64,000 nucleotides of DNA, taken from assembly GCA_009780585.1 (NCBI GenBank), contig WQZS01000011.1, forward strand, positions 1 to 64,000, given 5' to 3'. Shown here piece after piece: positions 42,744 to 48,595 of the stretch (positions are counted from its first letter, which is position 1; every line of letters starts with the position of its first letter). Made by a program: the position numbers and the translations under genes. The notes below the pieces were generated by a model. That model made no database searches. It was not told the origin of the DNA and saw nothing but the letters and a program-made list of their open reading frames with translations. The stretch is from Defluviitaleaceae bacterium. GTDB lineage: Bacteria; Bacillota; Clostridia; Lachnospirales; WQUN01.

Positions 42744-44026
42744 TATTGTTCGTCCGTTCTTTCCAAGCGAGATTCCAAGCGTATTTCCAAGCCCGCTCCC
42801 TGCTCAGCCGGAAAGCCCAGCATAAAACGCTCCCCTTCTCTCGTCGGTATATTTAACGCGCCGGGCGTCAGCGTTTGGCGGTTTAACGTATCCAAACCGA
42901 ATGTAAATGCCAGCTTGCGGTAGCGCGTTACGCGCCCATGGTCCACCACTACCTCGATGGGGTACGGGAGCGGATCGTGCGTGGGCCCCCACCCGTCCTC
43001 CGGCGTAAGGAGCGGGAAACCGCCCGCCTCCGTACCCCCGATGACATAATTAAACCAAAAGACATGCGTGCGCCCGCGCGATTCAAACCCCGCGAGGTAA
43101 AAATCATGGCTCGACGCGTGGGGGTCGTTATTTACGAACGCCAGCGCACCCGAAAAATCCGTCATAAAATCGGGCCGTTCGCCGCGTCTGATGGGACGGA
43201 AGCAATTGTATTCCAAAATATTACCCGGGAAATAACGAACCCGCGTATTAATCGTCGAAATCGTGATAACGTTATCGACCATACGCGGGTTCCGTATGGC
43301 GGGGTTGTCGAAGAGATACGACACCTGCGCGTTGACCGAATGAAGCTGTACCTCACCCAAGCGGTTGGCGTACGGGTTCGTCATGCGGAGCGTATTATGC
43401 CGCCAGCCGTCTTGCGTGCGGGGCAGAAAAATCCGCGTATCCGTGGCGTTAAAGTACAGGTTGTCATCGATATAAAAATCGGGTAATTGGAATTGCCCCG
43501 AAGGTAAGGCGAATGTCCAAGCCCGTTCGCTATCCAAAAATATCACGCCCGCGGGTACGACCGCCACGGCGTTAAACGATTCGAGTCCTCTGTCCGTCAG
43601 CGCCGCACCCGTACGGCTATTAAACGCCGGCGCGAAAATGTCCGAATTTACCGTAAACGCGTATTCGTACAGCACGATCGGCCCGCGTAACGCGGCGTTT
43701 AGGGTCGGCGCGGCATCGCTTGTGCCAACGAAATCGCCGCGGCGTAAAATCTCCGCGATGGCATTGTCCGCCGTCGGTTCGTTAACGCCGTAGCGCATGT
43801 CGAACCGCCCGTCCCCATTGCCGAATACCACCCGCATGGGACGTACGATGTCCGTATACCCGTCGGGCGCGGGCGCGTCGAACAAAGCCGCGAAATAAAC
43901 AAAAAAACTGCGGTTCGTAATATTGACGAACCACAGGCGACCCGTTTGGTAAACGGCCAAAACACCCAAAACGATGATCACCAGGGTTTTTATCCTGCGC
44001 AGTATCCCTTTGTTGATATTAAACAT
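42743..44026 (-). CDS. yycH: YycH-like regulator of the WalK kinase
   Basis: This 427-residue protein has a single N-terminal membrane helix (IKTLVIIVLGVLAVYQ) and an extracytoplasmic domain, as in YycH. I chose ATG 44026 (MFNINKG) over the longer frame to 44287, which runs inside walK. It overlaps walK by 8 bases. With YycI it would adjust WalK-controlled cell-wall genes. Confidence 0.8.
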   Translation of the reverse strand: MFNINKGILRRIKTLVIIVLGVLAVYQTGRLWFVNITNRSFFVYFAALFDAPAPDGYTDIVRPMRVVFGNGDGRFDMRYGVNEPTADNAIAEILRRGDFVGTSDAAPTLNAALRGPIVLYEYAFTVNSDIFAPAFNSRTGAALTDRGLESFNAVAVVPAGVIFLDSERAWTFALPSGQFQLPDFYIDDNLYFNATDTRIFLPRTQDGWRHNTLRMTNPYANRLGEVQLHSVNAQVSYLFDNPAIRNPRMVDNVITISTINTRVRYFPGNILEYNCFRPIRRGERPDFMTDFSGALAFVNNDPHASSHDFYLAGFESRGRTHVFWFNYVIGGTEAGGFPLLTPEDGWGPTHDPLPYPIEVVVDHGRVTRYRKLAFTFGLDTLNRQTLTPGALNIPTREGERFMLGFPAEQGAGLEIRLESRLERTDEQ

Positions 44027-45521
44027 ATTTAACCCGTTGGAATGTCGGAGAGTTATCGCCGGATTCGTCCCCTTCGTGGGACATCCCGCCCTCTTCGCGT
44101 TTGAAGCGCAAAACCATGGTCGTGCCTTCGCCCGGGGTGCTTGACGCGTGTATCGCCCCCCCATGCGCCTCCATGATTTCCTTGGCGATGGCAAGGCCCA
44201 AACCCGTACCGCCGAGCGCGCGCGAACGTGCCTTGTCCACCCGGTAAAAGCGATCGAATATCCGCGCCAAATCTTCTTCGGGTACACCCATACCCTCGTC
44301 GCGGATGCTGACCGTGTGGCGGCTTTCGTCCGATTCGACCACTACGTGTACGGTAGAGCCTTCGGGGCTGTATTTGATGGCGTTTGACAAAATATTTGAT
44401 ATCACCTGGTTTACGCGCGGGGCGTTGGCTAGTATAAAACACGCTTCTTCCGTCCCGCCGAGTTTGATCTCCTGGTTCTTTTGCTCGGCCAGCACTTGGC
44501 ATTGGCGGATAGTGATGCGGATCAAGCCCAGTAAATCCACGATATCCAGCTCCAGCGTCGTTTGCTTGTTGTCCAAGCGTGATAACTCCAACAGATCCGT
44601 CACCAGCGTTGTCATGCGGCGCGCTTCCTCGTCGATGATTTCCAAGAAAGCGATGGCGGTTTTGGGGTCTTCAAGTGCGCCGTCTATCAACGTTTCGGTA
44701 TACGTGCGGATGGACGTCAGCGGCGTACGCAGCTCGTGGGAAACATTGGCAACAAATTCCTTGCGCATGTTGTCCTGCTTTTCCTTTTGTTCCAAATGCT
44801 GCACGATTTCATCCGTCATGTAGTTTACGCTGTTGGCCAGTACGCCGATTTCATCTCTGCTGTGTACGGGAATCTTTTTCGACAAGTCGCCCCCGGCCAC
44901 CGCGCGGGCATGGCGTGACATCGCCACGATGGGCCGCGTAATCGTATTCGCCAGGAAATACCACGCAATGGGGATAATGATCAATGCCACCAATACCGTA
45001 AGTAACAAAATCCGTGTGAGCTCGAACAGGTTCGCGTTCATGTCATCGGTCTTCATGCGGGTGTTGATAATAAAACGCCCGTCGGGGTGATCGACGGGCA
45101 TCGCAAAGCTCAGCCATTCCGCTTCAATATCGTTCAAATCCATACCCACACGCCCGACGGAGAAGCCCTCCTGCCCGCTCATGGCCCATGATATGGCGCG
45201 GTCGTTGGAACGCGCCCCCACAAACCCGGCAGGTGCGATCCCGATGCCCAGCTCGCTCATCAGGATCACTTCGATATCATACTCACTTTGCAGCGTTTCC
45301 CACTCGGGCGCGTCCATAAAACGCGAACGATCGTTGGGCTGCACAATCGTGTTATACGCCTGCACGGCAAAACCCCGCAGCCTTTCGCGCGCCCTTTCCT
45401 CCTCCATGGAGCGCACCTGCCGCAACATAAACGTACCGCTTAATACCATGACGATCAAAACCACGGAGATATATATGACCATCAGCTTTAATTTGATACT
45501 GTTGAATCGCCTTACCTTCAT
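44019..45521 (-). CDS. walK: Cell-wall sensor histidine kinase WalK, PAS domain apparently missing
   Basis: This 500-residue protein has two membrane helices (about 13-32 and 165-190) around an extracytoplasmic loop, then a HAMP domain and HisKA with the H box FVANVSHELRTPL. The ATPase has an N box (QVISNILSNAIKYSP) and a G box (GTGLGLAIAKEIM). Typical WalK proteins are about 600 residues, with a cytosolic PAS domain between HAMP and HisKA; here the H box follows HAMP almost directly. The operon position after walR makes the assignment secure. Confidence 0.9.
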   Translation of the reverse strand: MKVRRFNSIKLKLMVIYISVVLIVMVLSGTFMLRQVRSMEEERARERLRGFAVQAYNTIVQPNDRSRFMDAPEWETLQSEYDIEVILMSELGIGIAPAGFVGARSNDRAISWAMSGQEGFSVGRVGMDLNDIEAEWLSFAMPVDHPDGRFIINTRMKTDDMNANLFELTRILLLTVLVALIIIPIAWYFLANTITRPIVAMSRHARAVAGGDLSKKIPVHSRDEIGVLANSVNYMTDEIVQHLEQKEKQDNMRKEFVANVSHELRTPLTSIRTYTETLIDGALEDPKTAIAFLEIIDEEARRMTTLVTDLLELSRLDNKQTTLELDIVDLLGLIRITIRQCQVLAEQKNQEIKLGGTEEACFILANAPRVNQVISNILSNAIKYSPEGSTVHVVVESDESRHTVSIRDEGMGVPEEDLARIFDRFYRVDKARSRALGGTGLGLAIAKEIMEAHGGAIHASSTPGEGTTMVLRFKREEGGMSHEGDESGDNSPTFQRVKYV

Positions 45522-46228
45522 TGAGCGGTTCCCGTACCGAATTCCGCGGTGAAATGGTAACCCACACCGCGTTTGGTGAGAACATACGTGGGATTGTCGG
45601 GTTCGGGCTCGAGCTTGGTGCGTAGCCGACGGATCGTTACATCCACCGTGCGTACGTCACCGAAGAATTCGAAGCCCCATACCTCCTTAAGCAGCATTTC
45701 ACGCGAAAACACTTGGTTATTCTGCGTAGCCAAGAAGCGCACGACCTCAAACTCGCGCCGTGTAAGTTCAACCACCTCGCCGCCCCGCGTCACTTCGTAC
45801 AGGTCCAAATCGACGATGAGCTCACCAAAGATCAACTGTTTACCGACTTCCTTCTTCGCGTCCTTGTCCCATCGGCGCAAGTTAGCCATGACCCGCTTCA
45901 TCAACTCGCGTACGCCGAAGGGTTTGGTCACGTAATCGTCCGCGCCCAAATCAAAGCTCAATACCTTGTCCGTTTCGTCCGCACGTGCCGTCAGCATGAT
46001 GATCGGCACCTGCGAAACCTCGCGTATGCGTTTGCATACCTCGTAACCGTCCATCTTGGGCATCATGATGTCCAACAGTACCAAATCGGGCTTTTCGTTT
46101 AACGCCAGCTTCAAACCCGCCGCGCCGTCATAAGCGGACAAAACGTTGTAGCCTTCCTTCCTCAAGTTATAAGTCAAAATGTCTACGATTCTCATTTCGT
46201 CGTCCACTACCAAAATTTTCGCGCTCAT
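45518..46228 (-). CDS. walR: Cell-wall response regulator WalR
   Basis: This 236-residue OmpR-family regulator has a receiver with Asp9-Asp10, phospho-acceptor Asp53 (VLLDIMMPKMDGYE) and Lys in VTKPF. The winged helix contains TRREFEVVRFLA and VDVTIRRLRTKLE. It controls peptidoglycan hydrolases in Firmicutes. AGGGGAGG precedes the ATG. It heads the four-gene wal operon. Confidence 0.95.
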   Translation of the reverse strand: MSAKILVVDDEMRIVDILTYNLRKEGYNVLSAYDGAAGLKLALNEKPDLVLLDIMMPKMDGYEVCKRIREVSQVPIIMLTARADETDKVLSFDLGADDYVTKPFGVRELMKRVMANLRRWDKDAKKEVGKQLIFGELIVDLDLYEVTRGGEVVELTRREFEVVRFLATQNNQVFSREMLLKEVWGFEFFGDVRTVDVTIRRLRTKLEPEPDNPTYVLTKRGVGYHFTAEFGTGTAQ

Positions 46229-46984: not shown

Positions 46985-48595
46985 ATGCAAACCAAGTACA
47001 TCTTTATGACGGGCGGCGTGTGTTCGGGGTTGGGTAAGGGCATTACGGCCGCGTCGCTAGGGCGTTTGCTTAAGGCCCGCGGCTACCGCGTCACTATCCA
47101 AAAGTTCGAGCCCTATATCAATATGTTCCCAGGTTTGTTGAGCCCCTACCAGCACGGCGAGGTATTCGTCACCGAGGACGGCGCGGAATCGGACCTCGAC
47201 CTCGGCCACTACGAGCGCTTCATCGATGAAAACCTGAGCGTTAACAACAGCATTTCCGCGGGCAAAGTGTATTGGGAGGTTTTAAATAAGGAGCGCAAGG
47301 GCGTTTTCATGGGCAAAACCATCCAAATCATCCCCCACATCACCGACGCGATCAAATATTATATTTCCGGCAACCACGACGCCGACATCGTCATCACCGA
47401 AATCGGCGGAACCGTCGGCGACTTCGAAATACTGCCTTTCTTGGAAGCTATCCGCCAGTTCGGCGAGGATATCGGCTTCGAAAACGCCATGTACATCCAT
47501 CTTACGTTGGTGCCGTACCTCGATTTCGCGGGGGAACCGAAGACGAAGCCCTCCCAGCACTCGGTGAAGGAGCTGCGCTCGCTGGGCATCCGCCCCGACA
47601 TCCTCGTGTGCCGCACGCCCAAGCCGCTGGGTGAGGAAATGCGCAAGAAAATCTCCCAATTCTGCCACGTCAATCAAAATTGCATCATCGAAAATACAGA
47701 CGCCGATTGCCTCTACGAAGTCCCCCTCCTGTTAGAAAAGGAAAACTTCGCCCAAATCGTATGCGGCCGCCTGGGCCTTACCCCTCCCCCGCCCGACTTG
47801 GCCGAGTGGGAAGCCCTCACGCAAATTAAACCCACCCAAACCGTCACCATCGGCTTGGTGGGCAAATATGTGGAGTTTCGCGACGCTTATTACAGCGTGA
47901 CGGAAGCCTTCAAACACGCGGGTATCGCCAACCGCGCCAAGGTCAATATCGAATGGATTCACGCGGAGGAAATCAACGCCCACAACGCCCAAGAGCGCCT
48001 CCACGCCCTGGACGGCATCATCCTGCCCGGCGGCTACGGCGAACGCGGCGCGGACGGCCTCATACACGCCATCCGATACGCCCGCGAATCAAGGAAACCC
48101 ACCCTCGCTATCGGCCAAGGGATGCAATGCGCCCTCATCGAGTTCGCGCGCAACGTGGCTAACAACCCCGAGGCTGACAGCATGGAATTCAACCGCGAAA
48201 CCCCTTTCCCCATCATCGTCCCCATCGCCGCCAACATCGAGGAGGACGAAAAAATCGCCCCCCTGCGAAAAGGCGCGATCCCCATCAAACTTGCCCCCGA
48301 TTCCCTCTTAGCCGCCGCCTACGGCGAACTCCTCATCTACGAACGCTTCCGCCATAAGTACAAGATCAACAACCTTTTCCGTACGCTTCTCATGGATAGT
48401 AACCTGCACCTCGTCGGCCATTCCCCCGACGACCAAAACATCGAAGCCTTCGAACTGCCGCGCGGCACGCATCCGTGGTTCGTCGCTGTGCAGTTCCATC
48501 CGGAGTTTAAATCAAGGATGACAAGGCCGAGTCCGTTGTTTCGGGCGTTTGTGGGGGCTACACTCGATTCTTCAACTGGAAAACATACGCCATAA
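46985..48595 (+). CDS. pyrG: CTP synthase lacking the glutaminase nucleophile
   Basis: This 536-residue protein makes CTP from UTP, ATP and glutamine or ammonia. The synthase half is well kept (TGGVCSGLGKGI, SPYQHGEVFVTEDGAESDLDLGHYERF, EIGGTVGDFE). The C-terminal glutaminase has the PGGYGERG oxyanion loop and His505/Glu507 (QFHPEF), but the nucleophile motif GICLGMQ is AIGQGMQ: position 377 is Gly where Cys is required. Glutamine hydrolysis should fail and only free ammonia work, unless Cys382 or another residue substitutes. GCGGAGGGG precedes the ATG. The 3' end overlaps flhB by 38 bases. Confidence 0.93.
   Translation: MQTKYIFMTGGVCSGLGKGITAASLGRLLKARGYRVTIQKFEPYINMFPGLLSPYQHGEVFVTEDGAESDLDLGHYERFIDENLSVNNSISAGKVYWEVLNKERKGVFMGKTIQIIPHITDAIKYYISGNHDADIVITEIGGTVGDFEILPFLEAIRQFGEDIGFENAMYIHLTLVPYLDFAGEPKTKPSQHSVKELRSLGIRPDILVCRTPKPLGEEMRKKISQFCHVNQNCIIENTDADCLYEVPLLLEKENFAQIVCGRLGLTPPPPDLAEWEALTQIKPTQTVTIGLVGKYVEFRDAYYSVTEAFKHAGIANRAKVNIEWIHAEEINAHNAQERLHALDGIILPGGYGERGADGLIHAIRYARESRKPTLAIGQGMQCALIEFARNVANNPEADSMEFNRETPFPIIVPIAANIEEDEKIAPLRKGAIPIKLAPDSLLAAAYGELLIYERFRHKYKINNLFRTLLMDSNLHLVGHSPDDQNIEAFELPRGTHPWFVAVQFHPEFKSRMTRPSPLFRAFVGATLDSSTGKHTP

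Follow-up and report, generated by a model that had tools for sequence, protein, structure and literature searches.

A CTP synthase without its glutaminase nucleophile, probably ammonia-dependent, in a lineage of Defluviitaleaceae

To our knowledge, glutamine is a near-universal cellular carrier of reactive nitrogen, used together with ammonia tunnels. In CTP synthase (CTPS), the glutaminase is normally switched on by GTP. AsnA, which belongs to a separate family, is an ammonia-only counterpart of a glutamine-using enzyme. Single-domain NadE is another such NH3-dependent counterpart and has been proposed to be the ancestral form (PMC3376133), and vertebrate carbamoyl-phosphate synthetase I (CPS I) has lost its catalytic cysteine, leaving a dead glutaminase (GAT) domain on an ammonia-only enzyme (PMC7657897). 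Normal CTP synthases form CTP from NH3 in vitro, and changes of R429, L109, T438, and R440 in the Escherichia coli and L. lactis enzymes strongly reduced glutamine-dependent CTP formation, leaving the NH3-dependent reaction unchanged or at most approximately two-fold lower (PMC9138612).

Here, we analyzed a window, i.e. one whole stretch of 64,000 nucleotides of Defluviitaleaceae DNA, in which positions 46985–48595 of the forward strand encode a 536-residue PyrG. The gene stands alone and is preceded by a Shine-Dalgarno-like sequence, GGAGGGG. The protein fuses CTP_synth_N to a class I GATase, scores 692 bits against the NCBIfam PyrG model (curated cut-off 463), and is ∼49% identical to the E. 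coli PyrG structures. Its synthase (amidoligase) domain comprises residues 1–265 (46985–47779; Pfam PF06418, 4.9e-116), followed by the glutaminase domain at 47837–48559 (Pfam PF00117).

An earlier note, made from the DNA letters, had claimed that this glutaminase lacks its catalytic cysteine, and the alignment to E. coli PyrG confirmed this. The nucleophile elbow reads AIGQGMQ in place of the usual GICLGMQ; codon 48113–48115 is GGC, placing Gly377 opposite E. coli Cys379. The accompanying details also held: the neighboring Leu is replaced by Gln378 (CAA, 48116–48118), the His505 (CAT) and Glu507 (GAG) pair of the former triad is kept (48497–48505), and Cys382 (TGC, 48128–48130) lies nearby but offset, five residues past Gly377. 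A glutamine-hydrolyzing CTP synthase would have a Cys-His-Glu triad with nucleophilic Cys379, which the window PyrG lacks, and a folded GAT domain, which it is predicted to retain. In the AlphaFold model, pLDDT is mostly ∼90–97 over residues 285–525 and lower near 410–430, and the whole model matches E. coli CTPS with a TM score of 0.88–0.90 (Foldseek).

The alignment further revealed losses at the tunnel and GTP site that parallel the cysteine loss and that the earlier note had not described. All of the GTP-activation residues M52, L109, wing G437/T438, and R470 are replaced in the window protein. The L2 loop (47126–47140) carries D48F, T51L, and M52L, and the wing (L13; 48257–48271) carries G437A, T438P, M439L, and L441K with R440 kept (E. 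coli numbering; role in PMC9138612, Table 1). Lys-458 (48356–48358) replaces E. coli Arg470. Both M52 (Drosophila F50, a GTP/tunnel residue) and R470 (Drosophila R481) belong to the GTP site of CTPS (PMC9138612, including Fig. 7 legend). In the synthase L2 region, 47108–47128 encodes D42E and D48F; position 48 varies freely within the clade described below.

Compared with canonical PyrG from E. coli, M. tuberculosis, and T. thermophilus, the window enzyme has the same two domains, ∼46–49% identity, the same predicted fold, and the checked synthase residues, but it lacks the glutaminase nucleophile, and its GTP/tunnel and wing residues are replaced. It resembles CPS I in its Cys-less GAT domain and, as its sequence suggests, in ammonia-only use, which is established for CPS I. 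However, by family it is a CTP synthase and not a CPS; the acceptor reaction differs, and CPS I detoxifies ammonia in urea synthesis, whereas PyrG makes a nucleotide. Unlike NadE and AsnA, it still carries a glutaminase domain that was disabled later. The laboratory mutants R429A and L109A and the T438/R440 equivalents, with NH3 activity kept or mildly lowered and glutamine activity strongly reduced (PMC9138612), probably come close to its behavior, but those are engineered single changes, neither natural nor combined. By analogy with CPS I, the kind of change, an ammonia-only Cys-less amidotransferase, would already be known, and what appears new is the CTP synthase variant. A limited search of the open-access literature, mainly of titles and abstracts, did not turn up any naturally occurring CTP synthase described as lacking the catalytic cysteine.

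The earlier note had proposed checking conservation in sister species, and the replacement proved to be shared. A usable PyrG match was obtained in 31 genomes of this family (G000 denotes the window's own genome). Of these, 21 encode a Cys-less PyrG, always with Gly, and these form one clade with support of 100/99. C379, T51, M52 in the L2 loop, wing residues G437 and L441, and R470 are replaced in 21/21 members. L109 and wing T438 are replaced in nearly all, with exceptions in G003 (L109) and in G050 and G014 (T438), and the catalytic His has become Arg or Cys in seven of the 21. G014 is a deep member of the clade whose glutaminase domain is further degraded. K18, K40, P54, H57, D72, H118, E140, D147, E149, K187, K189, Q192, and K223 are unchanged in every member, so that the synthase-site and NH3-gate residues (K18, K40, D72, E140, K187, K189, Q192, P54, H57, and V60) are invariant except for V60I in some. 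Taken with the mutant review, this pattern of lost and kept residues indicates that the glutamine/GTP machinery has been lost and the synthase kept.

Protein and Pfam HMM searches found solely a normal PyrG in 10 of the 31 genomes, both forms in six, and solely the Cys-less form in 15, including G000 (95% complete) and G002 (97%). Nearly all of the genomes are drafts, and genes were scored as absent from targeted searches, which leaves any one absence uncertain. If all 21 clade members had a normal copy, however, incompleteness would hide ∼1.9 copies, compared with the 15 missing, and an assembly gap as the general cause is rejected statistically. The same searches of the 3.1-Mb genome of G000 found no second pyrG. 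The suggestion that the gene might be a paralogue with another role therefore does not fit G000 or 14 relatives, in which no other CTP synthase turned up, but it gains from the six relatives that also hold a normal pyrG.

That the codon is an artifact of sequencing or assembly is practically excluded; the earlier note had named a sequencing error as a possible refutation. The assembly is a draft of 53 contigs, but the same residue occurs in all 21 clade members, from separate assemblies, and in two genomes from other families of the order. Only slightly less improbable is relaxed decay, in which the gene would be heading for loss and kept by chance alone. The glutaminase domain is clearly relaxed or degraded, most of all in G014. 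In several Cys-less pairs the GAT:synthase nonsynonymous ratio (∼2.0–7.7) is higher than in canonical pairs (1.7–2.4), with overlapping ranges. However, the reading frame is intact in all 21 extracted members, the clade spans several genera, and both PyrG halves are under strong purifying selection between G000 and G002, the synthase more strongly (dN/dS of 0.006 versus 0.076 for the GAT half).

Two further explanations concern what the protein does. A separate glutaminase could supply ammonia in trans, so that glutamine would still be used; two-subunit amidotransferases exist, such as archaeal GMP synthetase (PMC10526850), and NCBIfam has an entry for an independent protein similar to the C terminus of CTP synthase. 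We consider this unlikely, as the GTP/tunnel residues of PyrG are lost too and a search within PF00117, which does not take in the PdxT, PurQ, and CobB-type class I families, found a single GATase besides PyrG in G000 (209 residues, intact GVCRGMQ, in an unrelated-looking gene group) and no further one in G002. The least improbable of the rivals, although still assigned only a small chance, is a pseudo-enzyme or regulator, e.g. a filament partner, that has lost synthase activity as well, with CTP obtained by cytidine salvage. Three relatives (G010, G039, and G040; 93–99% complete) gave no CTP_synth_N match, so that, within this order, salvage can apparently stand in for CTP synthase; they also weaken the argument that a sole copy must be essential. 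Matches to Udk, Upp, and Cdd are present in G000, and the D42E and D48F changes would suit an inactive synthase. Against this, none of the catalytic and ligand residues checked in the synthase site varies within the clade, the dN/dS of the synthase is very low, and a partner CTP synthase is absent from most of the genomes.

We therefore consider it highly probable that the window gene encodes an ammonia-only CTP synthase with a dead but folded GAT domain, within a lineage-wide shift from glutamine to ammonia. Because the glutamine-splitting site is broken, the enzyme would make CTP from UTP, ATP, and free ammonia without glutamine hydrolysis. The synthase half would phosphorylate UTP and then aminate it as usual, with NH3 entering directly, possibly by way of the opening over which GTP sits in normal enzymes, and reacting with phospho-UTP. 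The glutaminase half would persist as a folded, non-catalytic structural domain, whose fold may have been kept for the sake of the tetramer or the tunnel, and GTP would probably have no role. Dependence on free ammonia, as the earlier note had predicted, is the best-supported reading of the sequence, given the sole copy, the purifying selection, and the retained synthase residues; D42E and D48F in the L2 region are a point against it. Cys-less pyrG is probably one piece of a wider move from glutamine to ammonia as the amide donor in this family, whose named members live in termite guts; its companion changes are a GuaA glutaminase that is mostly lost, GatA reduced or catalytically dead in several genomes, and glutamine synthetase often gone.

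Other amidotransferases of these genomes were examined as well. GMP synthetase of G000 is a 310-residue, synthetase-only ORF (L205:2317–3246, reverse strand) adjoining a gene that reads as IMP dehydrogenase. Among the relatives, GuaA occurs in three stages: complete, with an internally deleted GATase, and with no GATase half. The intermediates, which lack both the GICYGMQ elbow and the His/Glu region, were found in G003 (L211), G016 (L235), and G049 (L238) and as second copies in G048 (L236) and G040, whereas the GATase half is wholly missing in G000, G002, G004, G011, G022, G043, G047, G051, and G052 and in a second copy in G046. GATase-depleted GuaA is present in 16 of 18 scorable Cys-less genomes versus none of 11 canonical-only genomes (p = 2.3e-6, relatedness ignored).

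GatA of G000 is represented by a 133-residue ORF (L206:2359–2757, reverse strand) matching residues 298–390 of normal GatA, a remnant of ∼100 residues located between gatC and a full gatB, as it is in G002 (L224). In G043, GatA has TGGA for TGGS and thus lacks the Ser nucleophile, and short GatA paralogues adjoining gatB in seven genomes (L225–L231) have no Lys-cisSer-Ser amidase triad. A weak GatA match in G055 proved to be another amidase. AsnA and an NH3-type NadE were found in G000, together with an AsnB-like protein that keeps Cys2. The AsnB-like protein of G019 (L219:1474–3270, reverse strand) begins MSGIGGF, with Ser for the N-terminal Cys.

The normal pyrG of G046 (L115:1–12997) lies in an apparent operon, glnA-ANTAR regulator-purF-carA-carB/dapF-guaA-pyrG-gatC-gatA, in which carB and dapF appear as a single ORF; comparable gene orders that include glmS, dapF, dapL, glnN, and argG/argH occur in G001, G004, G005, G048, and G050. 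These gene names are our own readings of the sequences rather than individual database assignments. Targeted searches of G000 and G002 gave no match to GlnA/GlnN, the ANTAR regulator, DapF, or DapL, and in G000 they found no glutamine synthetase (Pfam PF00120), GlmS, PurF, CarA, CarB, PyrB, PyrD, or PyrE. Searches for glutamine synthetase (PF00120) gave a match in all 16 genomes with a normal pyrG but in only four of the 15 Cys-less-only genomes, with none in the other 11 (Fisher p = 1.6e-5, relatedness ignored). Its presence in those four and the intact Cys of AsnB in G000 mean that a complete lack of glutamine fails as a strict rule for the cause. Since the normal gene sits inside a nitrogen operon in several genomes, it plausibly serves when nitrogen is short, with the Cys-less enzyme working when ammonia is abundant, which suggests a pair of isozymes for scarce and plentiful nitrogen.

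The named orthologue loci come from metagenome-assembled genomes (MAGs) labeled Defluviitaleaceae, obtained from the guts of Labiotermes (soil), Embiratermes (humus), and Cornitermes (litter); the habitat of G000 is inferred from a close relative whose PyrG orthologue is 97% identical. In the study that described these MAGs, 79% of those from Defluviitaleaceae came from gut compartment P1, for which strong alkalinity is reported elsewhere in several higher termites. Ammonia in termite guts amounts to 69–900 μmol per g dry weight in a survey of species other than the MAG hosts. Termite-gut origin and ammonia-rich guts together make ammonia plenty plausible for this lineage, in keeping with the suggestion in the earlier note that the organism lives with ample ammonia.

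On balance, we lean slightly toward the broader view that the lineage has largely stopped using glutamine as an amide donor, with CTP synthase, GMP synthetase, and tRNA amidotransferase each having lost the glutaminase part, glutamine synthetase gone in many members, and free gut ammonia feeding these reactions directly. The AsnB-like Cys of G000, GlmS in some relatives, and glutamine synthetase in four Cys-less-only genomes as well as in G055 and G098 speak against full abandonment. Glutamine use would apparently have been reversed by evolution in several enzymes at once, with relatives holding intermediate stages (whole, internally deleted, and without GATase). The lineage may thus serve as a natural experiment on what keeps tunnels and glutaminases in place and may supply candidate CTP and GMP synthetases that naturally use ammonia alone; it also ties the loss of one cysteine to what may be its ecological driver, guts rich in ammonia.

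Scanning 392 genomes of the order with a sequence pattern revealed a further two CTP synthases with Gly for Cys in other families, in G098 and G055 (100% complete); the pattern needs Gly at the Cys position, is blind to other replacements, and also misses the window's own AIGQGMQ form. Each is the sole CTP_synth_N match in its genome. Both genomes encode a GuaA without the middle of the GATase domain and a glutamine synthetase of the GlnN type. Their Cys loss may share its origin with that of the clade or may have arisen separately (tree support 77/83).

Finally, the gene neighborhood was rejected as a functional clue: neighbors are kept in only two of eight named relatives, and on the flagellar side only, so that context gives no function. 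Just upstream of pyrG, on the opposite strand, lies a two-component pair related to WalK/WalR (44019–46228), and flagellar genes (flhB, fliR, flgE-like, and flgD-like) follow downstream, from 48558 on.
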